Shown piece after piece: positions 23,842-46,428 of a DNA stretch of 46,637 bases (its first letter is position 1; each line of letters begins with the position of its first letter). Origin of the DNA: Acidobacteria bacterium RIFCSPLOWO2_02_FULL_67_21 (GTDB lineage: Bacteria; Acidobacteriota; Vicinamibacteria; Vicinamibacterales; UBA2999); NCBI GenBank assembly GCA_001767195.1, contig MEKU01000079.1, positions 8,084 through 54,720 of the forward strand. The letters are read 5' to 3'. Both the position numbers and the translations under genes were made by a program. The notes beneath the pieces were generated by a model, which ran no database searches, was not told the DNA's origin, and was given only the letters and a program-made list of their open reading frames with translations.

Positions 23842-23856
23842 CTGGTCGCTCCTGGT

Positions 23857-23878: not shown

Positions 23879-23900
23879 GCCCTACTCATCGGGGGATCCC

Positions 23901-24470: not shown

Positions 24471-24547
24471 GGCCGCAGGTCGCCCGGACCGTCGCGCTGG
24501 CGCACCCCTGATCCCGTTCACTTCCTGACTCCGCTTCTGAGATATCG

Positions 24548-24856: not shown

Positions 24857-24892
24857 GGCGCGCTCGTTCCTATCGTGGCGCGTTCGGTCACC

Positions 24893-24925
24893 CCGGCGCA
24901 CCGTCGCACCGCCGCACCGGCTCTC
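24893..24925. repeat. Right arm of GGTGCGA tandem repeat
   Basis: CGGCGCACCGTCGCACCGCC GCACCGG is the reverse complement of the left arm at 24420-24470, with a shared exact 14-mer. It ends shortly before the P-type ATPase remnant. Confidence 0.7.
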
Positions 24926-24942
24926 GTGTAATCCATCACCGG

Positions 24943-25735
24943 ATGCAGGCGGGTCGCTGGCACGGACAGGCGGCGGAGGCCGTCCTGGCCGCGCTCGAAT
25001 CACGCGCTTCGGGTCTCTCCGACGACGAAGCGCGGCAGCGTCTCGCGCGGTACGGCCCCAACCGCCTGCCGGCCGCACCGCGCACGCCGGCTCTGAAGAT
25101 CCTCCTCGACCAGTTCCGCAGCATCGTCGTGCTGCTGCTCGTCGCCGCCACGGTGGTGTCGTTGCTCCTCGGAGATCTCATCGAGGCGTCGGCCATTGCC
25201 GCGGTGCTCGCGATCAACGCCGCGCTCGGCTTCACGACGGAGTTTCGCGCGCGCCGCGCGATGGACGCGATCCTGCGCCTCGATGCGCCACGCGCGGCGG
25301 TGATCCGCGGCGGGGCGCTGCGCGTCATCGACGCCCGCGATCTCGTCCCTGGCGACATCCTCGAGCTCAGGGCCGGGCACCAGGTGCCGGCGGATGCGCG
25401 GCTCATCGAGTCAACCGATCTGCACACGAACGAGGCCGCGCTCACCGGCGAGTCGCCCGACAGCGGCGGGCCCGCCGGCCGGGCCGCACGCCTTTGCCGT
25501 GGATCCCGTCGATCGCGCCGTCAACGAGGCGGCGCAGCGGTTCGGCACCGATGTGGCCAAGGAGGCGGCGGCCGTCGTGCTCTCAGCGGGGCTGCAGATC
25601 GCCACGATGTACGTGGAGCCGCTGCCGCAGCTGCTGCGCGTCACACCCCTTGGCACTGGCGAATGGATGATGGTGGCGGCGTGTGCCGCAGTGCCGGCGA
25701 TCGTCGGCCAGTTATTGAAGCTGCGGGCTTCGTAA
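24943..25735 (+). pseudogene. P-type cation ATPase remnant (internal deletions)
   Basis: The N-terminal part is a good cation P-type ATPase: LSDDEARQRLARYGPNRLPA, two helices (SIVVLLLVAATVVSLLLGDL, AIAAVLAINAALGFTTEF), the actuator domain DLVPGDILELRAGHQVPADA and NEAALTGESP. The reading frame then changes. A second frame holds FGTDVAKEAAAVVL, which matches the hinge motif that follows the P-domain, joined directly to the last helices (EPLPQLLRVTPLGTGEW, ACAAVPAIVGQLLKL). The catalytic DKTGT segment, the N-domain and most transmembrane helices are absent: about 0.8 kb remains of about 2.6 kb. It cannot be a working pump. Confidence 0.8.
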
Positions 25736-25755
25736 CGCGGGTTGAAAATGCCTTG

Positions 25756-26127
25756 TCAGGCTCGCCACGCGAACCCAACGAGGTTCGCGCCACGGGGCCG
25801 CCACGCGTTCAGCTCGGTCCCCTCATCGACCACCGGCACGCGCACCTCGAGCACCCCGCCGGTCAGCCGGGCATCCGCCCGGTTCGGCCAGGCGCCCGCC
25901 GGCAACGCAACCAGGCGTGAAAACCGGCCGTAGGTGCATTCGACCTGATCCCGGCACCCATGGGCGGCGCTGTCGGGACGGGGGCGCTCGCCTGACACGC
26001 GCAGCGCGTCGTCGGAGATCTCCACGCGAATCGCGTCGGGAGGCACGCCAGGCAGATCGACGCGGATGACGAAGCACCCGGGGCGCGCGAAGCTGTCGAC
26101 GTCGGGCGACCAGGCGCGTGCCTTCAT
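25756..26127 (-). CDS. Hsp20/alpha-crystallin family small heat shock protein
   Basis: 123 residues. The alpha-crystallin domain is visible from FVIRVDLPGVPPDAIRVEIS through DDALRVSGERPRP and YGRFSRLVALPAGAW to the characteristic GVLEVRVPV. The N-terminal arm is short (MKARAWSPDVDSFARPG) and the C-terminal I-x-I anchor is not obvious. Small heat shock proteins are ATP-independent holdases. The start overlaps the stop of the upstream wHTH-like gene (ATGA), giving a two-gene operon under the sigma54 promoter at 26383-26398. Small Hsp genes are common members of hypoxia and dormancy regulons. Confidence 0.85.
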   Translation of the reverse strand: MKARAWSPDVDSFARPGCFVIRVDLPGVPPDAIRVEISDDALRVSGERPRPDSAAHGCRDQVECTYGRFSRLVALPAGAWPNRADARLTGGVLEVRVPVVDEGTELNAWRPRGANLVGFAWRA

Positions 26128-26339
26128 ACGAACCGCCGTCCGACGTTGGCGCCGAGGAACTCGCGGCCGTTGGTCCAGAGGGCCCCAGAGATGACAAGAT
26201 GCTCGAGGACGCGCGCACAGTGCGTCATTTCGAGGTTGAAGAGGCGTGCAGCCTGAGGCAATGTCAGGCGCATCCCGGGCATCTCGTGGTATTCGTCGCG
26301 GATACGCGCGCCGATCGTGCTATCCAGATGTTCGGTCAT
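26124..26339 (-). CDS. Small winged-helix-like protein upstream of Hsp20
   Basis: 71 residues: MTEHLDSTIGARIRDEYHEM, PGMRLTLPQAARLFNLEMTH and CARVLEHLVISGALWTNGRE. The pattern (PGMxLTxxQAxRLFxL, then xxCxxxLxxLVxxGxL) resembles short winged helix-turn-helix proteins often found in stress loci. DNA binding is inferred from the fold pattern. The start was chosen at MTEHLDS, 32 bp or so downstream of the predicted sigma54 transcription start. Its stop overlaps the Hsp20 start codon. Confidence 0.65.
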   Translation of the reverse strand: MTEHLDSTIGARIRDEYHEMPGMRLTLPQAARLFNLEMTHCARVLEHLVISGALWTNGREFLGANVGRRFV

Positions 26340-26382
26340 TCGTCGTCTCTCCGCGTGTGATTCGAGTGTTCGCGCCTGCCTC

Positions 26383-26398
26383 AGCAATGCGTATGCCA
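26383..26398 (-). promoter_or_regulatory. Sigma54 (-24/-12) promoter for the wHTH-Hsp20 operon
   Basis: Minus strand TGGCATACGCATTGCT, exact GG-N10-GC spacing, perfect -12 element TTGCT, 10 of 12 matches. It is 44 bp from the start codon of the first gene. It sits in the 146-bp gap between this operon and the BON gene end; nothing else is evident there. Confidence 0.65.
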
Positions 26399-26485
26399 CG
26401 CATGCGGTCGTCAGGGCCGCGCGCCAGCGCGGGCATTTCAGAGAATCTCAGGGCGCCGACGCCAGCGGCCGGCCGGGGTATTCCC

Positions 26486-27193
26486 CTAGCGTTCTGAAAT
26501 TTCCCCACCCTCGAGTGGCTCCGGGCGGTCCGGCGGCTCCACGACAATCCGGTTGTCGACCCACCGGATGCCTGGCGCGCTCGCCGCGGCGTGCTCGGCC
26601 GCCTCGCGCTGGAGCCACGAACCGACCCTCCCCGTCAGCAGCACCGCCTCTCCTTCGATCGCCACCGAGATGTGGCGCGCATCGACATCGGCGTTGTGAT
26701 GGAGCGCCTCTGCAATCCGGCGCCGGACATCCCGGTGGGTGCGATCGGGGGTCACCTCGATGTGGTTGAAGATGCCCCGCACGCCGCGCAGGTGCCGTAC
26801 CGCCTTTTCGGCATTCCCCTTCTGCGCAATCCAGCTCACGGCGCCGGTGAGCGTCACGTATCCGTGATGGACGGCCGCCTGCACGGACTCGGGGACGCCG
26901 ATGCGGAGCTCCAGCATCCGCGCCACGTCCCGGGCCAGGTCCGCGTCGCTCGGCTCGATCGCCAGACGCACCTGGAGATCGTTGGCGACGGCACGCACGC
27001 CGTGCACCCGCTTGACGGCGCGTTCGGCGGCGAGCTTGCCGGCGTAGGTGTCGATGAAACCGGTGAGCGTGACGACGCCGCCCTTGACGGCCACGCCGAT
27101 CGCGCTGCTGTCCACATCGGGGTCCCAGTCGAGCTGCCTCACCACGGCGTCCCGCGCACGAAGATCGGTGTCGGTCAGAGTCATCGTGGCCAT
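26486..27193 (-). CDS. Triple BON-domain protein
   Basis: 235 residues with three BON domains and no signal peptide. The repeats are IGVAVKGGVVTLTGFIDTYA with KLAAERAVKRVHGVRAVAND, then VQAAVHHGYVTLTGAVSWIA with AEKAVRHLRGVRGIFNHIEV, then ISVAIEGEAVLLTGRVGSWL with IRWVDNRIVVEP. BON domains (as in OsmY) bind phospholipid or other interfaces and protect the envelope under stress. The start ATG follows GAGGAGGTCAGCAG. A sigma54-type promoter lies 41 bp upstream at 27234-27249. Confidence 0.9.
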   Translation of the reverse strand: MATMTLTDTDLRARDAVVRQLDWDPDVDSSAIGVAVKGGVVTLTGFIDTYAGKLAAERAVKRVHGVRAVANDLQVRLAIEPSDADLARDVARMLELRIGVPESVQAAVHHGYVTLTGAVSWIAQKGNAEKAVRHLRGVRGIFNHIEVTPDRTHRDVRRRIAEALHHNADVDARHISVAIEGEAVLLTGRVGSWLQREAAEHAAASAPGIRWVDNRIVVEPPDRPEPLEGGEISER

Positions 27194-27233
27194 CTGCTGA
27201 CCTCCTCGGGTGCTCCCGGAAGTACTTACGACG

Positions 27234-27249
27234 AGCAAGTCCGGTTCCA
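27234..27249 (-). promoter_or_regulatory. Sigma54 (-24/-12) promoter for the BON gene
   Basis: Minus strand TGGAACCGGACTTGCT, exact GG-N10-GC spacing, perfect TTGCT, 10 of 12 matches. The gap between the divergent BON and CBS genes (27194-27460) carries this site and a plus-strand counterpart at 27388-27403. Confidence 0.6.
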
Positions 27250-27387
27250 CGCTCCACGCCGCGTTACGTATCGCCGCCTCCACCACGATGGCAGCCGTCA
27301 GGAATTTCTCCGCGGCCCTGCGCGACAAATTCCGCCGTGCGGACCGGCCGCACTCGACGCGTTCCCGCCGCAGGCGGAGGCGCGGCG

Positions 27388-27403
27388 AGGCACGGTCGTT
27401 GCG
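27388..27403 (+). promoter_or_regulatory. Sigma54 (-24/-12) promoter for the CBS gene
   Basis: AGGCACGGTCGTTGCG, exact GG-N10-GC spacing, 10 of 12 matches. It is 57 bp upstream of the CBS gene start, which has a strong GGGGAGG ribosome-binding site. Confidence 0.6.
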
Positions 27404-27460
27404 TCTGCGGCGTCAGAGCATCGACGGGAGTTCTGTAGCTGAACGTAGGGGAGGCGCATC

Positions 27461-28033
27461 ATGGGCGAACGCAAGGTGAGCGTGCCGCTGCCCACCACAA
27501 CGGCCGCAAAGCCACGCGCACCGTCGCGATCACTGAAGGCACACCCGCGAAAGCGGCATGACGAGGATGCGATGACCATCAACGACATCATGACCACCGA
27601 CGTGAAGACGTGCAGCCCGTCGACCGACGTGTCGGCGGCCGCAGCCCTGATGCTGGACGGCGACTGTGGGTTCCTGCCGGTCGTCGACGACGGGAAGCTC
27701 ATTGGCGTGGTGACCGATCGCGACATGTACATCGCGCTCGCCACCCGCGACGTCAAGCCGTCCGACCTCAGGGTCGGGGACGTCGCGTCCACGAAGGTCT
27801 GGACCTGCAGTCCGGACGACGACGTGTACGCGGCGCTCGCGACCATGAAGGAGAAGAGGGTCCGGCGGCTGCCGGTCGTCGGGTTCGGCGGCACCGTCGT
27901 GGGCATCGTGTCGATGAACGACCTGCTGCTCCGTGCCGGCGCGCGCAAACCGATCCGGACCGACGAGGTCGTCGGGACATTCCAGGGAATCTGCGCGCAT
28001 CACCAGCCCGTCCCGCACATCCACACGGCGTGA
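27461..28033 (+). CDS. Tandem CBS-domain protein
   Basis: 190 residues. The first about 37 are a basic, low-complexity extension (SLKAHPRKRHDED). A CBS pair follows: MTINDIMTTDVKTCSPSTDV, CGFLPVVDDGKLIGVVTDRD, then LRVGDVASTKVWTCSPDDDV and RVRRLPVVGFGGTVVGIVSM with NDLLL. CBS pairs (Bateman modules) bind adenine nucleotides and act as energy sensors. Such stand-alone proteins are common in hypoxia regulons, for example Hrp1 of Mycobacterium. An internal ATG at the MTINDIM position is possible, but the upstream ATG has the better ribosome-binding site. Its stop TGA belongs to the TGAACCACGA repeat. Confidence 0.9.
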   Translation: MGERKVSVPLPTTTAAKPRAPSRSLKAHPRKRHDEDAMTINDIMTTDVKTCSPSTDVSAAAALMLDGDCGFLPVVDDGKLIGVVTDRDMYIALATRDVKPSDLRVGDVASTKVWTCSPDDDVYAALATMKEKRVRRLPVVGFGGTVVGIVSMNDLLLRAGARKPIRTDEVVGTFQGICAHHQPVPHIHTA

Positions 28034-28117
28034 ACCACGACGGACACGAAGATCCCGAAGAACACGAAGGCACGATCGCTTCGTGACCTTCGGGATCTTC
28101 GTGCCCGTCGTGGTTCA
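28030..28117. repeat. Inverted arms of 9-bp CACGAAGNN units (family C)
   Basis: The left arm is TGAACCACGACGGACACGAA with GATCCCGAAGAACACGAAG. The right arm is CTTCGTGACCTTCGGGATC with TTCGTGCCCGTCGTGGTTCA. The arms are close to perfect complements. Each outer TGAACCACGA supplies the stop of one convergent gene: the CBS gene on the left and the Usp gene on the right. Confidence 0.85.
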
Positions 28118-29023
28118 GTCTCGCAACGTCAGAACGGGACAGGCGGCCGCCCGCACCACGTGCTGCGTGGTCGATCCGAACACGGCCAGGTCTGCCGCGC
28201 CGCGGCCGTGCACGCCGAGCACGATGAGATCGGCGGCCCGCTCGGCGGCCACACGCAGAATCGCCCGGCCCGGCTTTCCGCGCGCCATCTCCGTCTCGAC
28301 CGTGCAGTACGACCGCACCGCGCCGGGCACGAGCGCGTCGAGGCGCCTCCGGCGCTCCGCCTCTGTCTCCGCGACGAACTTCCGCACGGTGTCGGGCGTC
28401 CCGGTCAGGACCTCCTCCTCCTCCGGCATGAACTCGACGACATGCAGCACGGTCAGCCGCGCGTCGGCCTCCTCTGCGAGCGAGATCGCGAAGTCCAGCG
28501 CCTTGAGCGAGCAGTCGGAGAAATCGACGGCGCACAGAATGCGCCGGAAGACCGGTGCCAGCGGCACAGCGTCGGGTGCGCGGGGCGGCACCACCAGCAC
28601 GGGACAGGCGGCCTTCCGCAGGATTCGCTCCGTGACCGATCCGAGCAGGAGCCGGTCGAACCCCGATCGGCCGTGCGTCCCCATGACCATCAGATCACAC
28701 GACAGCTTCTCGGCGAGCGCGAGGATCTCCACGCCGACACTGCCTTCCGCGACCTGGTAGTCGACAACCGGATTGGCGCCTGCCTCTCCTTCTGCCAGGC
28801 GCCGCATCCCGGCGATGAGCGCCGAGCGCTCGGCCGCGGTCATGACATAGGCGGGAAAGGCCGGCGCCCCGGGCGCGACGGCCGCCAGCGGCACGAGCGG
28901 CTGCACGTACAGCATCGTGATCGCCGAGCCGTACCACCGGGCGATCGCCGCCGCGTAGTCGAACGCGTGCCGCGAGCACTCGGAGAAGTCCACGGGACAG
29001 AGAATCCGGCGGATCTCGATCAA
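28115..29023 (-). CDS. Universal stress protein, tandem UspA domains
   Basis: 302 residues with two well-kept Usp domains: IRRILCPVDFSECSRHAFDY to DLMVMGTHGRSGFDRLLLGS, VTERILRKAACPVLVV, and FRRILCAVDFSDCSLKALDF to DLIVLGVHGRGAADLAVFGS, TTQHVVRAAACPVLTL. The ATP-binding glycine pattern is present in both. It follows the helix-hairpin-helix remnant by 12 bp on the same strand and is probably read from the sigma54-like site at 29796-29811. Its stop TGA is part of the repeat at 28030-28117. Confidence 0.92.
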   Translation of the reverse strand: MIEIRRILCPVDFSECSRHAFDYAAAIARWYGSAITMLYVQPLVPLAAVAPGAPAFPAYVMTAAERSALIAGMRRLAEGEAGANPVVDYQVAEGSVGVEILALAEKLSCDLMVMGTHGRSGFDRLLLGSVTERILRKAACPVLVVPPRAPDAVPLAPVFRRILCAVDFSDCSLKALDFAISLAEEADARLTVLHVVEFMPEEEEVLTGTPDTVRKFVAETEAERRRRLDALVPGAVRSYCTVETEMARGKPGRAILRVAAERAADLIVLGVHGRGAADLAVFGSTTQHVVRAAACPVLTLRD

Positions 29024-29035
29024 GGCGCCCAGCCT

Positions 29036-29775
29036 TCAGGCCGCGCGGCCTGTGTAATAGGTTTCACATTCCCACTCACGACCGGCCACCACCCGGCGGC
29101 CGCGCAGCGGTCCGTGCGCGGCGGTCACCACCGTGTGCAGCCGCTCGCCGGTCCCGTCATCCGCATAGAGCACGACCCAGTCGCCGGTCCGTGCGGCGCG
29201 ATGCGCGGCAGCGCGCCGGCGGCCGCCTGCTCGCAATACTCCCGGTCGACGTCGAGCAGCTCCGCGACCGGAGGCGGCGGCCCTGCGGCCGCCGGCGTCC
29301 GCACGCGGCCGAGCCGATGCGCCAGCGAATCGCGGATCCCGGCGAGCCGCTTCTCGCCGAAGCCGGCGATGGTCTCGAGCCGGCCGTCGTGGGCGGCCGC
29401 CTCGAGGTCGGCCAGCGTGTCGATGCCGAGCTCGTCGTGCAGCCGCGCCGCCAGAACCCCGCCGATGCCGGGCACCGAGGCCAGCAGCGCCACCGGGGCG
29501 GACTCCCCCCGCAGCCGCTCCAGCATCGGCAGCCGCCCTGACACGAGCAGCTCGCGTACCGCGCGCGCGATGCTGTCGCCCACCCCCCTCAGCTCCTTCA
29601 GCCCCGCACTCCCCTGCTGCCTGAAGATCTCATCAACGGGACGGCTGGTTCCGCGGATGGTCATGGCGGCGCGGCGGTAGGCGCGCACCCGATACGGATC
29701 GGCGCCCTGATCGCGGAGGAGGCGCGCGGCCTCCTCGAGCCGACCGGCCACATGTTGGTTCAGTGCGCAGATCAT
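29036..29775 (-). pseudogene. Helix-hairpin-helix DNA-binding protein, frameshifted with an internal loss
   Basis: The N-terminal frame has the polymerase X-like helix-hairpin-helix region: AARLLRDQGADPYRVRAYRR, GSAGLKELRGVGDSIARAVR, ASVPGIGGVLAARLHDELGI and ETIAGFGEKRLAGIRDSLAH. It reaches AAAGALPRIAPHG and then loses frame near 29215. The expected C-terminus continues in another frame (RTGDWVVLYADDGTGERLHT, VTAAHGPLRGRRVVAGREWE, CETYYTGRAA). The middle segment that normally joins them (a WLPVLHT...TALFSNT type stretch of about 30 residues) is absent. The start MICALNQHVAGRL is tentative. Probably non-functional or truncated. Confidence 0.7.
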
Positions 29776-29795
29776 GTCGCGCCTGCTCTGGCTCA

Positions 29796-29811
29796 AGCAA
29801 ACGCCGCGCCC
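29796..29811 (-). promoter_or_regulatory. Candidate sigma54 promoter for the HhH-Usp pair
   Basis: Minus strand GGGCGCGGCGTTTGCT, exact GG-N10-GC spacing with perfect TTGCT but a weaker -24 (10 of 12). It lies 21 bp before the HhH start codon and would also serve the downstream Usp gene. Confidence 0.45.
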
Positions 29812-29910
29812 TCGAGCTCGTGCGGAATCTTTCATGAGGCAGGGCAAAAACCCTGCCCGCGCCGGCCCGCGGATACCGCCCAACTTCGCGCCGTCAGCCC
29901 TGCCGGCGCG

Positions 29911-29926
29911 TGGCACGGTCAATGCT
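29911..29926 (+). promoter_or_regulatory. Sigma54 (-24/-12) promoter for the Usp-HPF operon
   Basis: TGGCACGGTCAATGCT, exact GG-N10-GC spacing, perfect -24 heptamer, 11 of 12 matches. It is 52 bp upstream of the Usp start, with AGGAG before the ATG. Confidence 0.75.
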
Positions 29927-29977
29927 GCCGGTACCAACGGGCGCGATGGCGCGCCGCATCACCAGGAGAAGAACGCG

Positions 29978-30472
29978 ATGACTGATTCAATCACCCGCAT
30001 TCTGGTGCCGGTCGACTTCAGCGCCCACTCGGACCGGGCGCTGCGGTATGCCGCGTCGCTGGCGAGCGAGGTGGGCGCGTCGGTGGAGTTGCTGCACGTG
30101 GTGGAAGACCCGTTCAGGGCCGGCGCCTTCTCGTCCGAGGTCTACCCGCCCAACCTGCCGGAGGTCCTGGAGGGCCTGACGGCCGAAGCCGGCCGGCGGC
30201 TCGCGACGATCAAGGACACGATGTTCCCCCATGGGACCGACGTCGTCTTTACCGTGATCGTCGGACGGCCCGACCGCGATATCGTCGAGCAGGCGAAGGC
30301 CGGCGGCTTCGATCTGATCGTGATGGGCACGCACGGACGGACCGGGTTCTCGCACATGCTGATGGGAAGCGTGGCCGAGCGCGTCGTGCGCATGTCGCCA
30401 TGTGCCGTCCTGACCGTGCGCGGTGCGGAGACGCCCGAGCGTCACTCGGCGGCGCCGTTCAGGGCCGCGTGA
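29978..30472 (+). CDS. Universal stress protein, single UspA domain
   Basis: 164 residues: TRILVPVDFSAHSDRALRYA, ELLHVVEDPFRAGAF, and [20 protein letters not shown] with [17 protein letters not shown]. The G-x2-G-x9-G-S ATP-binding motif is intact. The ATG was chosen for its AGGAG at proper spacing, downstream of the sigma54 promoter. Seven bases separate it from the HPF-like gene, so Usp, HPF and the 77-aa protein form one operon. This links growth-arrest survival with ribosome hibernation. Confidence 0.93.
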   Translation: MTDSITRILVPVDFSAHSDRALRYAASLASEVGASVELLHVVEDPFRAGAFSSEVYPPNLPEVLEGLTAEAGRRLATIKDTMFPHGTDVVFTVIVGRPDRDIVEQAKAGGFDLIVMGTHGRTGFSHMLMGSVAERVVRMSPCAVLTVRGAETPERHSAAPFRAA

Positions 30473-30479
30473 GGAACCC

Positions 30480-30893
30480 ATGACCCAGATCCCGACGCAG
30501 GTCACCTTTCACGGCATCCGGCACTCCGACGTGCTCGAGGCGGAGATCCTCGAGCGGGTCGCCTGGCTGGAGCAGTTCTACAGCCGCGCGATCGGTTGCC
30601 ACGTGCTCGTGGACGTGCCGCACCGGCATCAGCGTGGTGCCCGGCACGTCCGGGTGCGGGTCGAGCTGACGGTTCCCGGCGGGCCGCCGATTGTGGCCAG
30701 CCACGATCCGTCGCTCCACGCCTCGCTGAAGGACTCCGGAGAGGCGGCCCACCACAAGGAGAGCGAGGTCGAGAGCGTGCACCGGTACGCGCACGTCGCG
30801 ATCCGGGAGACGTTCGACGCCGCCCGGCGGCGGCTGCAGGACTTCGCGCGCGAGCAGCGCCACGCGACCAAGACCCGTGAGGCAGCCCTATGA
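30480..30893 (+). CDS. HPF/RaiA family ribosome hibernation factor
   Basis: 137 residues. The S30AE fold is suggested by TQVTFHGIRHSDVLEAEILE, a curved beta-sheet (CHVLVDVPHRHQRGARHVRV, RVELTVPGG) and the last helix (VAIRETFDAARRRLQDFARE). HPF and RaiA bind the 30S decoding region and inactivate or dimerise ribosomes in stationary phase. The long-form C-terminal dimerisation domain is absent. It lies seven bases after the Usp gene and overlaps the next gene by ATGA, in the sigma54-promoted operon. Confidence 0.75.
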   Translation: MTQIPTQVTFHGIRHSDVLEAEILERVAWLEQFYSRAIGCHVLVDVPHRHQRGARHVRVRVELTVPGGPPIVASHDPSLHASLKDSGEAAHHKESEVESVHRYAHVAIRETFDAARRRLQDFAREQRHATKTREAAL

Positions 30894-31123
30894 CGACGGA
30901 CGAACCCGAGACGCCGAAGATTCGCGAGCCGCTCGCCGAGCTCGAGCGGAAGCTCCTCGAGGCGTACCTGGCGGGCGCGGGCCACAGCCTCGACGCCCTC
31001 CTGACCCGCACCGACGCCGAGGCTCGCGCGCTGCTGACGGCGGCATCGCGCTATGCGAGCGACAAGCTGGCAGAGGTCGAGGCGCGGTCGCGTTACCTCC
31101 ACGCCCTGCACGGATCGCCCTAG
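30890..31123 (+). CDS. Small helical protein of unknown function (77 aa)
   Basis: I do not recognise a named family. The sequence is acidic and helical (PLAELERKLLEAYLAGAGHS, DAEARALLTAASRYASDKLA), with no signal or membrane segment. Its ATG overlaps the HPF-like stop (ATGA), so it is co-translated with HPF. A role beside ribosome hibernation is a reasonable guess only. It overlaps the end of the sortase remnant on the other strand by four bases. Confidence 0.65.
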   Translation: MTTDEPETPKIREPLAELERKLLEAYLAGAGHSLDALLTRTDAEARALLTAASRYASDKLAEVEARSRYLHALHGSP

Positions 31124-31382
31124 AAGTCCAGCCGCTCGGCCTGGACGATGAACCGCTGCGGCGCGCGGCCGACGTATCTGAACGGATAACAGGTCACGAG
31201 CGTCAGACGCACGCCCGGCCACTCCTCCAGGACCCAGACATCGTCCGGATCGACAATCAGCACCTGCCGTACGCGGTACCCTGCGAGACCGCTGGTGAGA
31301 CGCGCATGGTCAGCGTGCCGGCGGCGCCAGAGGGCCAGGCCACCAGCGACAGAACCGTCCCGATCAACAGCCATCTGGTCAT
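31120..31382 (-). pseudogene. Class D-type sortase remnant
   Basis: The C-terminus is clearly a sortase: RVRQVLIVDPDDVWVLEEWP followed by RLTLVTCYPFRYVGRAPQRF, with the catalytic Cys in TLVTCYPF and the catalytic Arg in RFIV. The region that should hold the catalytic His (about 100 residues) is missing. A separate frame upstream encodes a signal/anchor helix (MTRWLLIGTVLSLVAWPSGA), consistent with the original N-terminus. The two ends are now joined out of frame, so the gene is dead. Confidence 0.7.
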
Positions 31383-31466
31383 TGTCCGTCTCGCGGTTTG
31401 TGAAATTGCAACAGGTGTTCCATACTCGGGGTGGAGGGAAGTCCGCCCCGCATCGGGACGGCGATA

Positions 31467-31482
31467 TGGCCTCCCGTCTGCA
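31467..31482 (+). promoter_or_regulatory. Weak sigma54-like site for the DUF302 gene
   Basis: TGGCCTCCCGTCTGCA has exact GG-N10-GC spacing but only 8 of 12 matches. It is 23 bp before the DUF302 ATG, which has a GGAGG ribosome-binding site. The support comes mainly from position and from the neighbouring sites. Confidence 0.35.
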
Positions 31483-31504
31483 TGCCAAGACATCTGGAGG
31501 CTTC

Positions 31505-31921
31505 ATGCAGGAGACCCGCTACGGATTGCGCGTCGAGCTCCCCGTCGGTTACGACGCCGCGGTGGAGCGCGCCACCGCGGCGCTGAAGTCGCAGGGGTTC
31601 GGCGTCCTGACGACGATCGACGTGCAGCAGACGCTCAAGCAGAAGCTCGATCGCGACTTCCGCCGATACGTGATCCTCGGGGCGTGCAATCCACCGCTCG
31701 CCGACCGCGCCCTCCACGCGGAGCTCGAGGTGGGGCTTCTGCTCCCCTGCAACGTAATCGTGTACGAGACGACGCCAGGCCGAACCGTCGTCGCCGCGAT
31801 GGCGCCGCTGGCGGCACTTGGCATCGTGGGCGACAACGCGGAGCTGCAACGCGTCGCCGAGGAGGCTGACGCGCGGCTGCGAGCGGCCCTCGCATCACTC
31901 GAATCAACGCCCACTGCCTAG
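31505..31921 (+). CDS. DUF302 family protein
   Basis: 138 residues. The DUF302 pattern is clear: YGLRVELPVGYDAAVERATA, ALKSQGFGVLTTIDVQQTLK, KQKLDRDFRRYVILGACNPP, LADRALHAELEVGLLLPCNV and VVAAMAPLAALGIV. The CNPP and PCNVIVYE motifs with two conserved Cys are kept. DUF302 proteins are small cytoplasmic proteins of unknown function, common in low-oxygen and sulfur-related loci. The TAG stop lies in GCCTAG, the end of the element at 31915-32021. Confidence 0.88.
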   Translation: MQETRYGLRVELPVGYDAAVERATAALKSQGFGVLTTIDVQQTLKQKLDRDFRRYVILGACNPPLADRALHAELEVGLLLPCNVIVYETTPGRTVVAAMAPLAALGIVGDNAELQRVAEEADARLRAALASLESTPTA

Positions 31922-32021
31922 AAGCGGTTTCAGAACCGACGTAGTACCCGGCTTTAGCCGGGCTGAAGCCCGGCACTACGTACGTACCCCCAAGTCGGTT
32001 ATGAACCGGTTCTCGCTAGGC
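31915..32021. repeat. 107-bp inverted-repeat element with REP core
   Basis: The outer ends are GCCTAGAAGCGGTTTC and, inverted, GAACCGGTTCTCGCTAGGC. Inside is a REP-like core (GTAGTACCCGGCTTTAGCCG, GGCTGAAGCCCGGCACTACG). The structure looks like a MITE. The left GCCTAG supplies the DUF302 stop codon. A related, partial element is at 32384-32450. Confidence 0.7.
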
Positions 32022-32031
32022 ATTGTTCCGT

Positions 32032-32370
32032 TCATTCGGCCTCGTGAAAGTCGCCCGTGTCGTAGCGCGTGCCGTGCGACGCCACCGCCTGCCACCGGCC
32101 GTCGCGCTTCTGCCACACGTTGGTGTAGTGATAGTGGCCGCTCGTGTCGGACCCGTCGTAGCGGCTCCGCTCCTGCTGGCTGGTGAACGCGACCGCCATG
32201 TCGCCGTAGTCGTTCACCGAGACCTCGTCCAGGTCCATCATGTCGGCGACGAACTTCGCATCCAGAAGCGGCGTCGGCGTCGCCGCCGCGCCATGGACGA
32301 ACACCTGCATACCGCTGCCGACAATCGTGACGGCTTCGTCTGCCGTCACTGCGCGGCTCAGGATGTCCAC
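32032..32370 (-). pseudogene. SnoaL/DUF4440-like protein, N-terminally truncated
   Basis: The 112 visible residues resemble the NTF2-like SnoaL/DUF4440 fold: LLDAKFVADMMDLDEVSVND, YGDMAVAFTSQQERSRYDGS, and HYHYTNVWQKRDGRWQAVAS. The start is a GTG (MDILSRAVTADEAV), but the conserved first helix of the family is missing. The frame runs back toward the REP-like element that begins at 32384. The gene sits exactly between two repeat elements. It may be a truncated gene or a shortened functional protein. Confidence 0.55.
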
Positions 32371-37211: not shown

Positions 37212-37576
37212 TGTCCTCTCATCATCCCACGGCCGCCGCCCTGGCCCGGCATGCCCTGGCCGCCCATCATCTGCCCGTGCATCTGCGCCATGTGCTCGTG
37301 CATCGTCTTCTGCTGACGCACCATCTCGTTGACCACGGCGGCCATCGAATCGACCTTCGCGGTACCGGATGCCGCGTTCATCTGCGTCACGAGGGCGTCG
37401 AGTTTCGCCTCGTTGGCCTTCATCCCGGCCATCATCTGCTCGTGCATCTTCATCATGTCGCCCATGTTCGGTGACGGCTGCTGCGCCGACACGGCGGCAG
37501 CGCCGGTCAGGCGGCCGACCCCGCTGCCCAGGGCCAGAAGAACGACGGTTATCGCGAGTGCTGAACGGATCATCAT
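37208..37576 (-). CDS. Met/His-rich exported protein
   Basis: 122 residues. There is a signal peptide with likely cleavage at VSAQQ, then a helical Met/His-rich body: NMGDMMKMHEQMMAGMKANE, EMVRQQKTMHEHMAQMHGQM and a Gly/Met tail (GGQGMPGQGGGRGMMRG). Met- and His-rich repeats of this type often bind copper or silver in the periplasm, but this is inferred from composition. The ATG overlaps the stop of the HAD-ATPase gene (ATGA) and its stop overlaps the OsmC start. Confidence 0.7.
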   Translation of the reverse strand: MMIRSALAITVVLLALGSGVGRLTGAAAVSAQQPSPNMGDMMKMHEQMMAGMKANEAKLDALVTQMNAASGTAKVDSMAAVVNEMVRQQKTMHEHMAQMHGQMMGGQGMPGQGGGRGMMRGQ

Positions 37577-39396
37577 GCGGCCTCCTTGTTGTGACCAGGC
37601 GTTCCCGGTGCTGCCTTGCTGCGCTCGATGCCTGCCAGCGCCGTGCCGGACGACAGCTCATCGTCGGTCAGGTCGTATCGGGAACGGATGGCGTTCACGA
37701 TGCCCGGCAGCACATCCTTTTCGGTCCCCCGGCCGAACCACCCCTCGAACACACGCAGATCCTGGGCGAGCGCGTGATCTCCAAAGACGTCGGCGATCCA
37801 CCGCGAGAAATCGCCTCGGTGAAGGTACGCCGCGAACGCCGCCGAGGAACCGTGCTCGAGCACATCGACGAACTGACGGAGCGTCCGCGCCCGGCGTGGT
37901 GGGCCGCCGTTGACGGCGAACTGGAACGATCGAGCGTCGGTGACCGGCACGTCGACGTACTTCTGGCGGTGCCGCACGTGCGTCGTGAGCCGCTGGCCGA
38001 TGTTGAACAGCTTCAGCTCCCCGCCCGCCTCGTCGGTGATCGGCAGGGCCACGGCCTGCCCGGTGGCGATCCGGCCGAGCCGCGACCAGTCCGCCGGGGC
38101 GACGCCGCCAGGCCCGCAGGCGCCGCACCGCGCGCACAGCGCGTCGATCTCGGCGGGGTTCGATTCGCAGGTCACGATCATGACCTCGGTGGCATCGAGC
38201 AGCTCGGCCGGGAGCCGCGACGCGCAGTACGTGACGACGATGTAGCCGTTGCGGTCGAGATCGAGCAGATGCCCGGCCGCCGCGTCGTGCAGGAAGTAAT
38301 GGGCCTCGTCCAGCAGAATCCGGTGCGGCAGCCCGGTGTGCCGACGCAGGATGTTGATCGCAGGCAGCACCGAGCGGATGTACTCGATCTTCTCGTCGTG
38401 CGGCACGTGCGCCAGGTCGATGACGACGCTGCGGTCCGGGTACCGGAGCGCCCGAATCAGATCGCGCGGCGAGGGGGGCGGATCCTCGGCGCCCATGACC
38501 GTCACCCCCGGAAGCGCCTCGAGCGATCGATAGTCGCCTTCCGCATCGAGCACGCATACCGAGTAGCCGTGGAGGATCAGCTGCTCGCAGAGCAGGCCCG
38601 CCATCCAGGACTTGCCGGATCGGGCATCGCCGGCGATCAGGATGTTCCGGCCGCGGACGGCCAGCGAGAACTCCAGCCCGTCTTCGGTGTGGCCGAGCCG
38701 CAGGCGCCGCCGCGCCTTCTCGGGCACCGGCACCCGTCCCGTCGCCGCCACCGAGCGGACGTACTCGGCCACCGCCGCCGGCGAGCTTCCGCGGATCGTG
38801 GCGTCAGCGGCCGCCAGGAGGGCCGGGCTCCCCCACTCGACCGCCGCCCCGCTCTCGACCAACTGCAGCAGCGCGTGGTCGTTCTCGGCGTCGCCCACGC
38901 CCACAGCGTTCCGCGGCGACAGCCGCAGCATATCGAGCGTCACGTGCAGCCCTGTCGCCTTGCTGACACCCTGCGGCAGGACCATCACGCGGCTGCGGTT
39001 GAATGCCAGGACCAGCGGCAGCTCGAGCTCGCGTACGGCCTCCAGGATGCGCGGCGCGTCCGCCGATGCGCAATCCACGAGACACTGCCCGGGCGTAAAC
39101 GGAATTCCGCGGCGGCCCAGCGCCTCGAGGAGGGCCGGCGCAACCGGCGGCGCCAGCGCGCTGGTGAAGTCGCTGCCCGGAAAGTGCACCACCGCCCCGT
39201 TCTCAGCCACCACGCCGTCGACGAAATGAAGGTCGCCGGCCACGCGCCGCAACTGGCTCAGAATCCGCCCCGTGACCAGCAGCACGGTCAGCCCGCGCGT
39301 CCGGGCTCTGGCGATCGCATCGCGCACGGCGGGATCCAGCGCATCGCGCTGCGCGATGGTCCCGTCGTAATCGAGCGCGATGACCTTGAGCTTCAT
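37573..39396 (-). CDS. HAD-IIB phosphatase fused to a HerA-like P-loop ATPase
   Basis: 607 residues. Residues 1 to about 215 are a Cof/IIB-type HAD phosphatase: LDYDGTIA (Asp9, Asp11), LLVTGR, and GVGDAENDHALL (166-177). A linker leads to a P-loop ATPase: Walker A GDARSGKS (256-263), CVLDAEGDY, and Walker B RILLDEAHYF (359-368). Its closest likeness is HerA/VirB4/DUF87-type ATPases. The last about 150 residues are unassigned. Fusion of a sugar-phosphate-type HAD with a motor ATPase is unusual, and the substrate is unknown. It overlaps the Met-rich gene and follows tonB by 35 bp with a hairpin between. Confidence 0.85.
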   Translation of the reverse strand: MKLKVIALDYDGTIAQRDALDPAVRDAIARARTRGLTVLLVTGRILSQLRRVAGDLHFVDGVVAENGAVVHFPGSDFTSALAPPVAPALLEALGRRGIPFTPGQCLVDCASADAPRILEAVRELELPLVLAFNRSRVMVLPQGVSKATGLHVTLDMLRLSPRNAVGVGDAENDHALLQLVESGAAVEWGSPALLAAADATIRGSSPAAVAEYVRSVAATGRVPVPEKARRRLRLGHTEDGLEFSLAVRGRNILIAGDARSGKSWMAGLLCEQLILHGYSVCVLDAEGDYRSLEALPGVTVMGAEDPPPSPRDLIRALRYPDRSVVIDLAHVPHDEKIEYIRSVLPAINILRRHTGLPHRILLDEAHYFLHDAAAGHLLDLDRNGYIVVTYCASRLPAELLDATEVMIVTCESNPAEIDALCARCGACGPGGVAPADWSRLGRIATGQAVALPITDEAGGELKLFNIGQRLTTHVRHRQKYVDVPVTDARSFQFAVNGGPPRRARTLRQFVDVLEHGSSAAFAAYLHRGDFSRWIADVFGDHALAQDLRVFEGWFGRGTEKDVLPGIVNAIRSRYDLTDDELSSGTALAGIERSKAAPGTPGHNKEAA

Positions 39397-39409
39397 CGGA
39401 CCTCGGTCT

Positions 39410-39432
39410 GCCGGGTCCAAAAGGACCCGGCC
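39410..39432. repeat. Strong intercistronic hairpin
   Basis: GCCGGGTCCAAAAGGACCCG GCC is a perfect stem of about nine pairs with an AAAA loop. It lies between the TonB-type gene and the HAD-ATPase gene, where it could attenuate read-through or protect the upstream mRNA. There is no T-tract, so it is not a classical terminator. Confidence 0.7.
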
Positions 39433-40157
39433 TACTTGGTGAGGGTGAACGAGACGACGACGGTCAGGATGAATTTTTCCGGCTGGCCGTTCAGCAGCAC
39501 CGGCGAATAGCGCCACTGCCGCACGGCCTCGAGCGCCGCGGCGTCGAACACACCGTTCGAGCGAAGCACCCGCACATCCTCGACCCGCCCGTGCTGGTCG
39601 ACCAGCGCTTCGAGGATGACGATCCCCTCCAGCTGGCGGGCGACGGCCAGCGCCGGGTAGACCGGCTCGACGCGATGCACGAGCGTCGGCTCCTTCACTT
39701 GGCCGCCGATGCGGATCGGCCCGCGCGGCGGCGGCGGAGGGGGCGGCGGCGGTGGAGGCGCTTCCGGGACCAGCCCGCCGACCACCCCGCCCGGGATGCC
39801 GCCCGGCACCCCGCCTTCGACCCCTGTCATCTGCGCGAAATCAGCGGACGGCTCCGGCGCGATCTCGTTCGGCGGCTCGATCGGCGCCACGTCGCCCGAC
39901 GTCGGGACCGGGCGCTCCACCCGGGCGCGCTGCTCGGGTGGCGGGGCCGGCGGCGGGGGCGGCGGGGGCGGCGGCGCCGCCGCCCCCACCACGAACGCCA
40001 TCATCATCTGCTCGGCCGGAATGGGCGCCACGACGAACATCACCGGGCCGATGAAGACCGCGCCGATCAGGACCACGTGGGCCACGACCGACACCACGAT
40101 CGGGCCCGCCTGGTGCCTCGGTGTGTGTGCTGTCTTGCCGGTGATCAGGTCAAACAT
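39432..40157 (-). CDS. TonB family energy transducer
   Basis: 241 residues. An N-terminal membrane helix (VVSVVAHVVLIGAVFIGPVM) is followed by Pro-rich spans (two runs of about ten prolines) and a C-terminal TonB domain: PTLVHRVEPVYPALAVARQL, EGIVILEALVDQHGRVEDVR and ALEAVRQWRYSPVLLNGQP. TonB couples the ExbBD proton motor to outer-membrane receptors; no exbB, exbD or receptor gene is in the window. It is the second gene of the eight-gene operon. Confidence 0.92.
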   Translation of the reverse strand: MFDLITGKTAHTPRHQAGPIVVSVVAHVVLIGAVFIGPVMFVVAPIPAEQMMMAFVVGAAAPPPPPPPPPAPPPEQRARVERPVPTSGDVAPIEPPNEIAPEPSADFAQMTGVEGGVPGGIPGGVVGGLVPEAPPPPPPPPPPPRGPIRIGGQVKEPTLVHRVEPVYPALAVARQLEGIVILEALVDQHGRVEDVRVLRSNGVFDAAALEAVRQWRYSPVLLNGQPEKFILTVVVSFTLTK

Positions 40158-40193
40158 GCCCTCCTCCCTGCCCGACGCACGCGATACAGTGCG

Positions 40194-40439
40194 TCACGCA
40201 CGACCTTCGCGCGGGCGGCGCCGCAGGAGCCGCGCTTCCCGGCCCTTCACCACTTCCTCCAGCAGGCAGACGCCGGCAAGACCTGTCACCGCGGGGACGA
40301 TGCCGATCATCATGAGCACGAGGCCCACGAGCGAGGGGTGCGTGGCCCCGTACGCAATGAGCGCGAGGCCGACGGCCACGCGGCCGATGCGGCCCGTCGT
40401 CGATCGGAGGAAGTCGATGTACGCGTCGAGGAACGCCAT
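40194..40439 (-). CDS. DUF2892-like small membrane protein
   Basis: 81 residues with two membrane segments (RVAVGLALIAYGATHPSLVG, LVLMMIGIVPAVTGLAGVCL). The pattern of an N-terminal FLRSTTGRIGR-type amphipathic stretch then a G-x3-A helix and a helix ending in GxCxL is that of the YgaP-type DUF2892 membrane module. The protein may shape or anchor a complex; no activity is predicted. It heads the operon beneath the sigma54-like promoter at 40467-40482. Confidence 0.7.
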   Translation of the reverse strand: MAFLDAYIDFLRSTTGRIGRVAVGLALIAYGATHPSLVGLVLMMIGIVPAVTGLAGVCLLEEVVKGREARLLRRRPREGRA

Positions 40440-40466
40440 TGTCTGATTGCCTGCGATCGGCGGTAG

Positions 40467-40482
40467 TGCAAGGGCACGGCCA
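40467..40482 (-). promoter_or_regulatory. Sigma54 (-24/-12) promoter of the eight-gene operon
   Basis: Minus strand TGGCCGTGCCCTTGCA, exact GG-N10-GC spacing, perfect TTGCA, 9 of 12 matches. It is 28 bp upstream of the DUF2892 start. The genes downstream to 32446 are all on the minus strand with gaps of 36 bp or less, most of them overlapping. Confidence 0.55.
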
Positions 40483-40576
40483 CACCGGATCCCGTGCAAA
40501 ACAAATCGCTTACGGTTCGCGCCTGAGATCCGGACGGGAAAAACTCTGTGGAGTGCGAAAAAATCGGAGGGGTCGA

Positions 40577-40978
40577 TCAGTGGAGCGGCGTGCCCGGCGA
40601 CCGCGATGCGTGCGCGTCGATCACGAGCGATCCGAGGCCGTGCATGTCGAACGGCTTGCTGACCACACGGTAGGCGCCGAGGTCGAGCGCGGCCCGGATC
40701 ACCTCCGGCGTGCCGAAGGCGGTCATCATCACGACGGCGCTGTCGGGCCGCAGGCGGCGGACGCTCGCCAGCAGTTCGAGATCGTTGGAGTCGGGCAGCC
40801 GGTAGTCGAGCAGCACGACGTCAATCGGCTGAAGGCTCCCTTCGAGCGTCTCGACGGCGGCCGTGGCGCTCGCAGCCTCGACGACCGTGTGGCCCATCTG
40901 CGCGAGCGTCTCGGCGATCGACCATCGGATCAGCGTTTCATCCTCGACCACGAGCACGCGGAGACGCTGCTCTGTCAT
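40577..40978 (-). CDS. Single-domain response regulator
   Basis: 133 residues, a receiver domain only: VVEDETLIRWSIAETLAQMG, Asp58 in VVLLDYRLPDSNDLELL, MMTAFGTPEVIRAALDLGAY and Lys in SKPFD. No output domain follows, so it may act as a phosphorelay or through another protein. Its sequence resembles the receivers of the two NtrC-type regulators. It lies 111 bp downstream of the twin-PAS kinase on the same strand, with an inverted repeat between them. Confidence 0.92.
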   Translation of the reverse strand: MTEQRLRVLVVEDETLIRWSIAETLAQMGHTVVEAASATAAVETLEGSLQPIDVVLLDYRLPDSNDLELLASVRRLRPDSAVVMMTAFGTPEVIRAALDLGAYRVVSKPFDMHGLGSLVIDAHASRSPGTPLH

Positions 40979-41089: not shown

Positions 41090-42559
41090 CTAGGCGCGTG
41101 CCGCGCCCGATGTGAATAACGGCAGGTGGATCGTGACGACCGTCCCGCCGCCGGTGGGACACTCGACGCGGATGCTGCCCTGGTGCGCCTCTACCAGCCG
41201 CTTCGCGGTCGGAAGGCCCAGGCCCGTGCCGCGCGATTTCGTCGTGAAGAAGGGGACGAAGATGCGTTCGCGAACCTCCGGCGGGATGCCCGGCCCGTCG
41301 TCGGCAAAGGCGATGCGGCAGAGGCTGTCGATGGTGGCGATCGACACCTGGATGCGTCCGCGGCCCCGCATCGCCTGCGCACTGTTGACCAGCAGGTTCT
41401 GAAAGACGATCTTCAGCAGCTCGGGATCGCCCACCACCGGCAGCGAGCCGCCTTCCACGCGGATGTCGACATCCTTGAGCGCCGGATCGCCGCCGAGCAG
41501 GTCCGCCGTCATGGAGATGAGCGGCGGCACCTCCACCGGCACCGGCCTCGGCTGCGGCGGCCGAGCAAAGAGCAGCAGGTCCTGTATCAGGCTGTTGAGC
41601 GTGTCGATCCGCGCGACGATCTCGCCGACGATGGCCGCGTCCCGGCTCTCAACGGGCAGGCGGCCGCCGATCACCTGCACGGCGCCGCGGATGCCGGCGA
41701 GCGGGTTCTTGATCTCGTGCGCGATCACCGCTGCCATCTCGCCGAGCCGCACGAGTGCCGCCTGCTCGCGGAGCCGCTCCTCCATCTGCACGCGGGCGCT
41801 CAGGTCGTGGAGGATTCCGGTGAACCTGCGGCGCCCGCCGCTGGCGATCTCCCCGACCGACAGGTGCAGGGGAAACGTGGTCCCGTCGCGGCGAACCCCG
41901 GTGACCTCGCGGCCGATCCCGATGATCTCCGCGTGGCCGGTCGAGAAGTATCGCGCCAGATACCCGTCGTGCTCCTCCCGGTACGGCGACGGCATCAGCA
42001 TGGCGACGTTGCGCCCGACCACTTCGGACGCGTCGTAGCCGAACAGGCGCTCGGCCGCCGCGTTGAATGCCTCGATGCGGCCCCGCGCGTCGATGACCAC
42101 GATGCCGTCGACGGCCGACTCGACGATCGACCGCCACTGCTCCTCGCTGGCGCGGAGCCGATCCTCGAGCTGCACGCGGGCGCTCAGGTCGTGCACGATG
42201 CCGGTGAACTTGCGCTCCGTGCCGAGTGACATCTCCCCCACCGACAGGTGCAGCGGAAACGTCGTCCCGTCGCGGCGCAGCCCGGTCACCTCGCGGCCGC
42301 TGCCGATGATCCGCGCATCGCCGGTCTGCAGATAACGCGCGAGATAGCCGTCGTGCTCCTCTCGATACGGTGAGGGCATGAGCATCGACACATTCCGGCC
42401 GAGGATCTCCGCCTCCGGGTAGCCGAAGAGCCGTTCGGCCGCCGGATTGAACGTCTCGATGCGTCCGTGCGCGTCGATGACAATGATGCCGTCGACCGCC
42501 GAGTCGATGAGCGCCTGCAGCACCTGCGTGGCGCGGCCGTGTGGGTCGAGAGACTGCAT
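41090..42559 (-). CDS. FixL-like histidine kinase with two haem-type PAS domains
   Basis: 489 residues, soluble. Two PAS domains, 60-70 percent alike, lie at about 12-125 and 144-255. Each holds the FixL haem signature. In PAS1, YREEHDGYLARY has His69 and Arg75, then RIIGSGR has Arg89. In PAS2, His197, Arg203 and Arg217 are equally spaced. The spacing (6 and 20 residues) equals that of Bradyrhizobium FixL His200, Arg206 and Arg220. The kinase core has phospho-acceptor His281 (AVIAHEIKNPLAGIRGAVQV), NLLVNSAQAM, DDGPGIP and GTGLGLPTAKRL. Haem binding and O2 sensing are inferred from these residues. The response regulator downstream is the likely partner. Confidence 0.92.
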   Translation of the reverse strand: MQSLDPHGRATQVLQALIDSAVDGIIVIDAHGRIETFNPAAERLFGYPEAEILGRNVSMLMPSPYREEHDGYLARYLQTGDARIIGSGREVTGLRRDGTTFPLHLSVGEMSLGTERKFTGIVHDLSARVQLEDRLRASEEQWRSIVESAVDGIVVIDARGRIEAFNAAAERLFGYDASEVVGRNVAMLMPSPYREEHDGYLARYFSTGHAEIIGIGREVTGVRRDGTTFPLHLSVGEIASGGRRRFTGILHDLSARVQMEERLREQAALVRLGEMAAVIAHEIKNPLAGIRGAVQVIGGRLPVESRDAAIVGEIVARIDTLNSLIQDLLLFARPPQPRPVPVEVPPLISMTADLLGGDPALKDVDIRVEGGSLPVVGDPELLKIVFQNLLVNSAQAMRGRGRIQVSIATIDSLCRIAFADDGPGIPPEVRERIFVPFFTTKSRGTGLGLPTAKRLVEAHQGSIRVECPTGGGTVVTIHLPLFTSGAARA

Positions 42560-42673
42560 GCCGTGAGCCCCCCATAGCTTACCGTGAAATTTTCCGCATC
42601 GTCGGAGGCCCGCAGGCCATGGGGCGGACCGGGCCGCAGCCTTGCATCCTTGGAAGGCCAGAGAGGCGCGCGC

Positions 42674-42982
42674 ATGACACCCGATCTTTCGACGACAAAC
42701 ACGTTCCTTGGCATCATGGCCGCGGTCAGCCTCATCGAGGGGCTCGCGATCGTTGCGCTGCTCGCGGGGGGCTATCTGATGTATCGCCGCGTGATGCAGA
42801 CCCTGCGCGAGATCGAGGCGCGGCACATCGGACCCACAGCGGTCAGGGTCAACGCCATCCTGGACGATGTGCGAGGGGTGACGTCGGTTGTGAAGGGCGC
42901 CGCCGAGACGACGGACGCGGGCGTGCGCGGCGGGCTGGCGTGGCTGCTGAGGCGCGTCCAGTCCACTGGCCGCGCGGCGTAG
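42674..42982 (+). CDS. Small membrane protein with DUF948-like helix
   Basis: 102 residues. One membrane helix (FLGIMAAVSLIEGLAIVALL) is followed by a long amphipathic helix (RRVMQTLREIEARHIGPTAV through VVKGAAETTDAGVRGGL), as in DUF948-type membrane-anchored coiled-coil proteins. The start has GAGAGGCG upstream. It is divergent from the twin-PAS kinase with 114 bp between. Function unknown. Confidence 0.65.
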   Translation: MTPDLSTTNTFLGIMAAVSLIEGLAIVALLAGGYLMYRRVMQTLREIEARHIGPTAVRVNAILDDVRGVTSVVKGAAETTDAGVRGGLAWLLRRVQSTGRAA

Positions 42983-45159: not shown

Positions 45160-46428
45160 ATGACCACCCACGCGCTTCCACATCCGGCGGCCATCGCCCC
45201 GATCCGGTTCCGTGCCGGAGCGCTCTTCCAATTCACAATCGAGCACTTTCTGCTGCTCCCGATCGGCGGTCTGATCGCGCTCGTCTGGGCCAATACCCGG
45301 CCCGAGAGCTACTTCACGCTGTCGCATACGCTGGCGTTCACCGTCAACGAAATCGGCATGGCGCTGTTCTTCGCGCTCATTACCCAAGAAGTGGTGGAAG
45401 AAGTCATGCCGGGCGGTGCGCTGCACACATGGCGGCGCTGGATGCTCCCGATGGTGGTCGCCGTTGGCGGCACGCTTGGTTCCGCCTTCGTGTACCTCGC
45501 CTATGTTGACGTGAAATACGAGGCGGTCCTGGCGCCCGGATGGCCCGTGGCGGGTACCGTCGATCTCGCCTTCGCGTACTTCCTTGTCAAGGCGATCTTC
45601 CGGCGGCTATCTTCCGGCGGCACGCCGCGATTCCGTTCCTGCTGCTGCTGGCGATCGTCGCCGATGCCGTCGGCATGCTGGTCGTCGCATCGAGGCCTTC
45701 GTTCGTCGAGGTCCGTCCCGGCGGCACCGCGGTCATGGCGGTCGCGATCGGCCTGGCGTTCTTCCTGAGGCGCTCGAAGGTCAGGAGCTTCTGGCCCTAT
45801 CTCGCGCTGTGCGGCCCGCTCTCATGGTGGGCCCTGTACCCAGACGGGCTGCATCCCGCGTTTGGGCTCATGCCCATCGTCCCGTTTCTGCCGCACGCAC
45901 CGCGCCACGCTCGACCTCTTCGGCGAAGCGTCGCATGGACCGCATGATTCTCCACGACACTTCGAGCATGTCTGGAAATATCCGATTCAGGGCGTACTCT
46001 TCCTGTTCGGGCTCGTCAACGCCGGTGTGCTGCTGAGCAGCTATGGCACAGGGACCTGGGCGCTGCTGACCGCCGCCCTCGTGGGCAAGCCCGCAGGGAT
46101 GCTCGCGGCCGTCGCGCTGGCCCTTGGCCTCGGGCTGCACTTACCGCTCCGGTTCCACTGGCGCGACCTCGTCGTCGTGGCGCTCGCCACGTCCGGCGGC
46201 TTCACGTTCGGGTTGTTCTTCGCCACGGCAGTCTTCCCGATGGGCCCGATCCTCTCGGAGCTGAAGATGGGCGCGGTCGCCACCGGCATCGGCGTACCGG
46301 TGACCGTTGGTGCAGCCTGGGTGCTGCGCGCAGGCCGATTCGGATACCACGCCCATCCCCATCGGCACGAATCGCATCGAGCTCATGTGCATCACTCGCA
46401 TGCGCACCACGCGAGTGTAGAAAAGTGA
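45160..46428 (+). pseudogene. nhaA: NhaA-type Na+/H+ antiporter with two frameshifts
   Basis: Three collinear segments together match NhaA. Frame 1 (45160 to about 45603) has FTIEHFLLLPIGGLIALVWA, VNEIGMALFFALITQEVVEE and PGWPVAGTVDLAFAYFLVKA. Frame 2 (to about 45905) has FLLLLAIVADAVGMLVVASR, FWPYLALCGPLSWWALYPDG and MPIVPFLPHAP. The original frame returns with TLDLFGE, YPIQGVLFLFGLVNAGVLLS and LVGKPAGMLAAVALAL. A 14-bp tandem duplication (ATCTTCCGGCGGCT) near 45596-45623 causes the first shift; a one-base change near 45903 restores frame. A stop at 45766 cuts the protein after 202 residues. It ends in a His-rich tail (HAHPHRHESHRAHVHHSHAH). Confidence 0.85.

Follow-up and report, generated by a model that had tools for sequence, protein, structure and literature searches.

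The window, i.e., the whole 46,637-nucleotide stretch of DNA analyzed here, encodes a histidine kinase in which two consecutive PAS domains both carry the haem-binding residues of the oxygen sensor FixL. The presence of two FixL-type haem PAS domains in a single kinase, as the original prediction had proposed, is backed by the sequence, a structural model and conservation in eight species, with the haem itself being predicted. Based on the sequence, the best reading of the protein is an O2/hypoxia sensor kinase. The fuller account, which we hold to be probable, is that of a cytosolic FixL-type O2 sensor kinase with two haem b PAS domains and an output through a receiver protein and a sigma-54 low-oxygen stress response.

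Kinase gene and domain layout

Translation of the minus strand from 42559 to 41093, with the stop codon extending to 41090, revealed one complete gene of 489 codons encoding a PAS-type histidine kinase, laid out as follows.

41090–42559, minus strand: histidine kinase gene, 489 aa, PAS1-PAS2-HisKA-HATPase_c (translation, Pfam)
42176–42520, minus strand: PAS1, residues 14–128, FixL-type haem PAS (alignment to BjFixL 1dp6/1dp8)
42353–42355, 42335–42337 and 42293–42295, minus strand: PAS1 codons of His69, Arg75 and Arg89
41792–42139, minus strand: PAS2, residues 141–256, FixL-type haem PAS (alignment to 8js5, 1d06 and 2vv6)
41969–41971, 41951–41953 and 41909–41911, minus strand: PAS2 codons of His197, Arg203 and Arg217
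41558–41746, minus strand: HisKA dimerisation/phosphoacceptor domain, residues 272–334 (Pfam PF00512)
41117–41431, minus strand: HATPase_c domain, residues 377–481 (Pfam PF02518)

The catalytic motifs are all intact, i.e., HEIKNPL, in which the phosphoacceptor His281 sits, the N box, G1 (DDGPGI) and G2 (GTGLGLP), and together with the Pfam matches they give the HisKA plus HATPase_c core of a histidine kinase of the FixL type. No membrane anchor was seen in the kinase sequence, and Pfam found these kinase domains instead of the HAMP and MCP signalling domains of Aer2-type sensors, which are absent from the protein. GC content by codon position is 0.71/0.46/0.90 in the gene, and orthologue alignments begin at residues 1–14. 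A longer 691-aa ORF starting at 43165 was ruled out as the gene start, as the codon-position GC signal drops in the extension and an opposite-strand gene overlaps it (42584–42982), which is conserved with 55% and 48% identical homologues in L138 and L144.

Haem residues and structural model

The two triplets named by the original prediction at FixL spacing, His69/Arg75/Arg89 and His197/Arg203/Arg217, proved exactly right in the translation, the alignment and the model. In the alignment to FixL that had been proposed as a check, both map onto His200/Arg206/Arg220 of Bradyrhizobium japonicum FixL (BjFixL). Each domain has the histidine on the Fα helix, arginines at +6 and +20 and hydrophobic distal residues, and a phmmer search against solved structures returned FixL as the best match of both, with E about 1e-38.

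The AlphaFold model of the kinase, which contains no haem, has a mean pLDDT of 84 and a pTM of only 0.46, so the domain arrangement is uncertain. His69 and His197 lie within long Fα helices (residues 65–79 and 193–207), while Arg89 and Arg217 stand at the start of Gβ strands. PAS1 fits the haem domain of BjFixL in 1dp8 at 1.3 Å over 118 residues with an offset of +131, placing residues 69, 75 and 89 on 200, 206 and 220; PAS2 superposes on BjFixL 2vv6 at 1.3 Å over 106 residues with an offset of +3, placing 197, 203 and 217 on the same three positions. Both predicted domains match FixL crystal structures at 1.2–1.4 Å over 105–119 residues (Z 19–20), an agreement that amounts to consistency and not to proof, because the model was built without haem and AlphaFold knows FixL. 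The modelled PAS1-PAS2 tandem fits the PAS-A/PAS-B dimer structure of BjFixL (8js5) at 3.8 Å over 244 residues.

Conservation of both haem sites

To follow the double-haem kinase across the window's order, 162 genomes were searched, and it was found in the window species and seven others (L101–L107; L106 and L021 are the same assembly). The histidine and the distal arginine are kept in both PAS domains of all eight species. At the position of Arg206, 15 of 16 domains have the arginine, the exception being an Asp in PAS1 of L107. Mean pairwise identity between the eight species is 0.70 for PAS1 and 0.71 for PAS2, and this even conservation, together with the retained histidines and distal arginines, indicates that PAS1 is not a relic. 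Inside each gene PAS1 and PAS2 differ at 20–33% of residues and at 36–60% of fourfold sites.

In the window kinase the two domains share 75% of residues and 61% of fourfold sites. They are alike, as had been claimed, but too far apart to be called nearly identical, and a fourfold identity of just 61% means that they did not duplicate recently. As this value is only slightly above most comparisons of orthologous domains (29–56%), a recent gene conversion between the two, also considered, is not demonstrated. The simplest reading is that selection acts on both haem sites.

Copy number of the haem PAS domain

Relatives have either one haem PAS (e.g., L113, L118, L120, L128), a group in which some single-PAS calls come from partial contigs (e.g., L125) and may be truncated, or a haem PAS preceded by a non-haem PAS (L108–L111, L116, L122), which implies that the second haem domain was repeatedly gained or lost. 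At the same syntenic locus, G109 encodes a single-PAS kinase where G110 and the window genome (G000) encode two PAS domains. Double-haem genes are scattered in the kinase-core tree, whose well-supported branches require three changes or more. In the domain tree, which has 116 columns and leaves most forks unresolved, PAS1 and PAS2 are sisters in L107 (100/90) and in L104 (92/82), a pairing that suggests separate duplications or conversion; the PAS domains of Azospirillum and Paludibacterium branch apart from the Acidobacteriota ones. The kinase of L126 (G033:C753) has an in-frame truncation of PAS1 past the haem His/Arg region and is likely in the course of losing its second haem domain.

It could be argued from this history that PAS2 alone is the O2 switch, and that PAS1 binds haem but is silent in signalling or mainly aids dimerisation, as a leftover of easy PAS duplication. 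The PAS count flips between one and two in close relatives and even at one locus, the N-terminal PAS of L108–L111, L116 and L122 lacks haem residues, and G033 has lost part of PAS1. However, a silent domain sits poorly with the haem histidine and distal arginine kept in PAS1 of every double-haem species and with a conservation equal to that of PAS2, and we regard this explanation as rather unlikely.

Pocket residues and ligand

Among the haem-pocket residues of FixL as named in PMC10765370, the distal Ile/Ile/Leu/Val set of Sinorhizobium meliloti FixL (SmFixL) is present in PAS1 and PAS2 alike. The domains differ at the equivalent of BjFixL H214, on the propionate side (R in PAS1, E in PAS2), and at position 218 (S in PAS1, I in PAS2). 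If such differences gave the two haems unequal affinities, or if the haems were coupled, the kinase could respond to O2 at two thresholds or with steep cooperativity; a homodimer would carry four haems. However, only the window species has Glu at the H214 position in PAS2, so no conserved PAS1/PAS2 difference was seen at the pocket positions of the orthologues. Furthermore, in Vibrio vulnificus Aer2 the three haem PAS domains bind O2 with similar affinity but play different parts in signalling (PMC13401364), a precedent that speaks against taking two thresholds for granted. We consider a two-threshold or cooperative response unlikely. The same holds, at an equally low level of belief, for a broader scheme in which a FixL-type family gained its second haem repeatedly, was tuned to two O2 thresholds or to cooperativity, and drives a sigma-54 stress output via the receiver-only protein.

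NO and CO are further ligands of haem PAS domains, and NO- and CO-bound BjFixL structures (1dp8, 1lsv) are among the structural matches, but sensing of NO, CO or redox state in place of O2 appears quite improbable given that all eight species retain in both domains the distal arginine, which hydrogen-bonds the ligand in FixL (PMC10765370). That haem occupies neither domain or only one, the residues persisting by common descent, would agree with the N-terminal PAS of several relatives, which lacks the haem residues, yet it is very improbable when those residues have survived in 8/8 species despite the fourfold-site divergence between the domains.

Gene neighbourhood and the stress-gene island

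The oxygen-sensing kinase that we favor lies next to a receiver-only gene, and a candidate output regulator lies in a distant stress-type island of the window.

40577–40978, minus strand: response regulator of 133 aa consisting of a receiver only, encoded by the gene just downstream of the kinase (Pfam PF00072)
39432–40499, minus strand: YgaP-like membrane protein and TonB-type protein, downstream (synteny, Pfam)
14762–16117, minus strand: NtrC-type sigma-54 activator, REC-AAA+-Fis HTH, 452 aa (Pfam, identity to the relatives' homologues)
13813–32370: stress-type island, containing the window's NtrC-type homologue
13813, 28118 and 29774: three Usp genes of the island
14762 and 17650: two sigma-54 NtrC-type regulators
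16102–17583: non-haem PAS kinase of the island
23299: VIT1
25759: Hsp20
26489: BON
27461: CBS
30423: ribosome-hibernation-type S30AE
31295: DUF302

The receiver-only gene is kept beside the kinase in relatives, with neighbours 63–76% identical in L136, L137, L141 and L151, and the order DUF4956, kinase, receiver, YgaP-like protein, TonB-type protein is common to the window, G109 and G110. At the kinase locus, a FixJ-type regulator (receiver plus LuxR-type HTH) beside the kinase is absent, the neighbour being the receiver-only protein; the system is not FixL-FixJ.

Other genes of the region have features of their own. At 37573–39516 a HAD-type hydrolase is fused to a HerA/DUF87-type ATPase (647 aa), and L138, L139 and L141 have homologues 52–74% identical in the vicinity of the haem kinase. 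An NhaA-type Na+/H+ antiporter at 45160–46425 is present as two ORFs, one matching an early and the other a late part of the family profile, and is a frameshifted or split gene.

At eight loci a REC-AAA+-Fis sigma-54-type regulator lies near the haem kinase, as checked by Pfam in L137, L139, L142, L145 and L149 and by similarity in L146, L147 and L150. These kinase-near regulators are 62–74% identical to the window protein encoded at 14762–16117, which is probably the distal partner of the haem kinase, and the own genome encodes sigma-54. The window gene lies 25 kb from the haem kinase and adjoins the second, non-haem PAS kinase (16102–17583), which may be the real partner of the regulator. 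Near the haem kinase of L142, L149 and L150, two or three receiver-carrying proteins stand in a row (receiver-only plus NtrC type), and a branched phosphate flow is possible there. In L141 (5982–7724; same assembly as L021) a double-haem kinase is fused in frame to a receiver and lacks the HATPase end (G2 region); the kinase may be dead or rewired, or the assembly wrong.

Of 11 long contexts around the haem kinase in relatives, 10 contain Usp genes close to it, against 1 in 10 control stretches (Fisher p 0.0003). A sigma-54 promoter scan of the island gave 2 matches vs 0.34 expected, one at a gene start and the other inside a called gene, and was discarded as too weak to count. By analogy, a low-oxygen or dormancy-type programme would fit the genes of the island. 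In mycobacteria, the DosS/DosT-DosR system ties haem sensor kinases to genes for Usp, alpha-crystallin, CBS and ribosome-hibernation proteins; DosS and DosT hold their haem in GAF domains and the regulator is LuxR-type, and the likeness to the window system is one of analogy only.

Proposed mechanism

We propose that PAS1 and PAS2 would both bind haem b via the histidine of the Fα helix. In FixL, O2 bound to the PAS-B haem represses the kinase (PMC8534201) and the distal arginine hydrogen-bonds to the bound ligand (PMC10765370). In the same manner, O2 on the haem, held by Arg89 or Arg217, would keep the window kinase off, and its loss would lead to autophosphorylation of His281; both the ligand and the sign of the response are carried over from FixL. 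PAS2, joined to the dimerisation helices, would probably be the direct switch, like PAS-B in FixL, while PAS1, in place of the haem-free PAS-A of FixL, may serve as an additional O2 input and bias PAS2. The receiver-only neighbour and the sigma-54 NtrC-type activator, as putative partners, would then receive the phosphate, and the activator may switch on a low-oxygen stress programme that includes Usp, Hsp20, a ribosome hibernation factor and CBS proteins.

Distribution of the tandem motif

The own genome gave 41 kinase-type matches, 20 of which were fetched as loci, and a FixL-type haem PAS was found in the window kinase only. The tandem H-R-R motif is rare and not a chance match: at exact spacing, 4 of 396 Acidobacteriota genomes have it, each belonging to the window's order. 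Among 398 Pseudomonadota genomes the Azospirillum seed itself was the single hit, and a reversed control pattern gave 1 match in total. The motif is strict and overlooks variants; of the eight double-haem species it misses four, some of them outside the sample. Two Azospirillum kinases (L023, L025) carry two strict FixL-type haem PAS motifs each. In Paludibacterium (L047:4914–8747) a 1278-aa hybrid kinase contains five PAS domains, three with strict haem motifs, along with a receiver and an Hpt domain.

Comparison with known systems

Characterized FixL has one haem PAS, as the original prediction correctly stated (PMC8534201; PMC10765370), and the effect of haem PAS number on the O2 response has been hard to test in a kinase. 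BjFixL (8js5, 1drm) shares with the window protein a soluble tandem-PAS kinase with a HisKA-type core, the haem PAS fold, the His/Arg/Arg residues and the distal pocket; it differs in carrying haem in the second PAS (PAS-B; PMC8534201), whereas the window kinase has haem residues in both, and in having FixJ as partner where the window kinase has a receiver-only neighbour. SmFixL (1d06) shares the distal set and, with PAS1, an Arg at the H214 position, but it is membrane anchored with a single PAS (PMC10765370). The open-licence papers searched describe no FixL-type kinase carrying two haem PAS domains. The window's order offers one-haem, two-haem and non-haem plus haem kinases on similar cores, some at the same locus, as well as a haem sensor kinase linked to a sigma-54/universal-stress island in a group whose O2 signalling is little known.

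The Azospirillum kinases share two strict haem PAS motifs in a histidine kinase but are about 42% identical overall, and the Paludibacterium protein differs in its hybrid build, its five PAS domains and its receiver and Hpt domains. The tandem haem PAS itself is already known, in the Aer2 chemoreceptors of Vibrio. V. vulnificus Aer2 has three such domains (PMC13401364), and V. cholerae Aer2 two, going by the title of Greer-Phillips 2018 as cited in PMC8694187. The Aer2-type haem PAS falls in cluster 119, apart from the FixL-type cluster 3 (PMC10468136). Aer2 and the window protein have in common tandem haem-PAS O2 sensing in one protein, experimental in Aer2 and predicted in the window; Aer2 proteins, however, are chemoreceptors, whereas the window protein is a kinase, and as such a good test case for why a sensor would need two haems.
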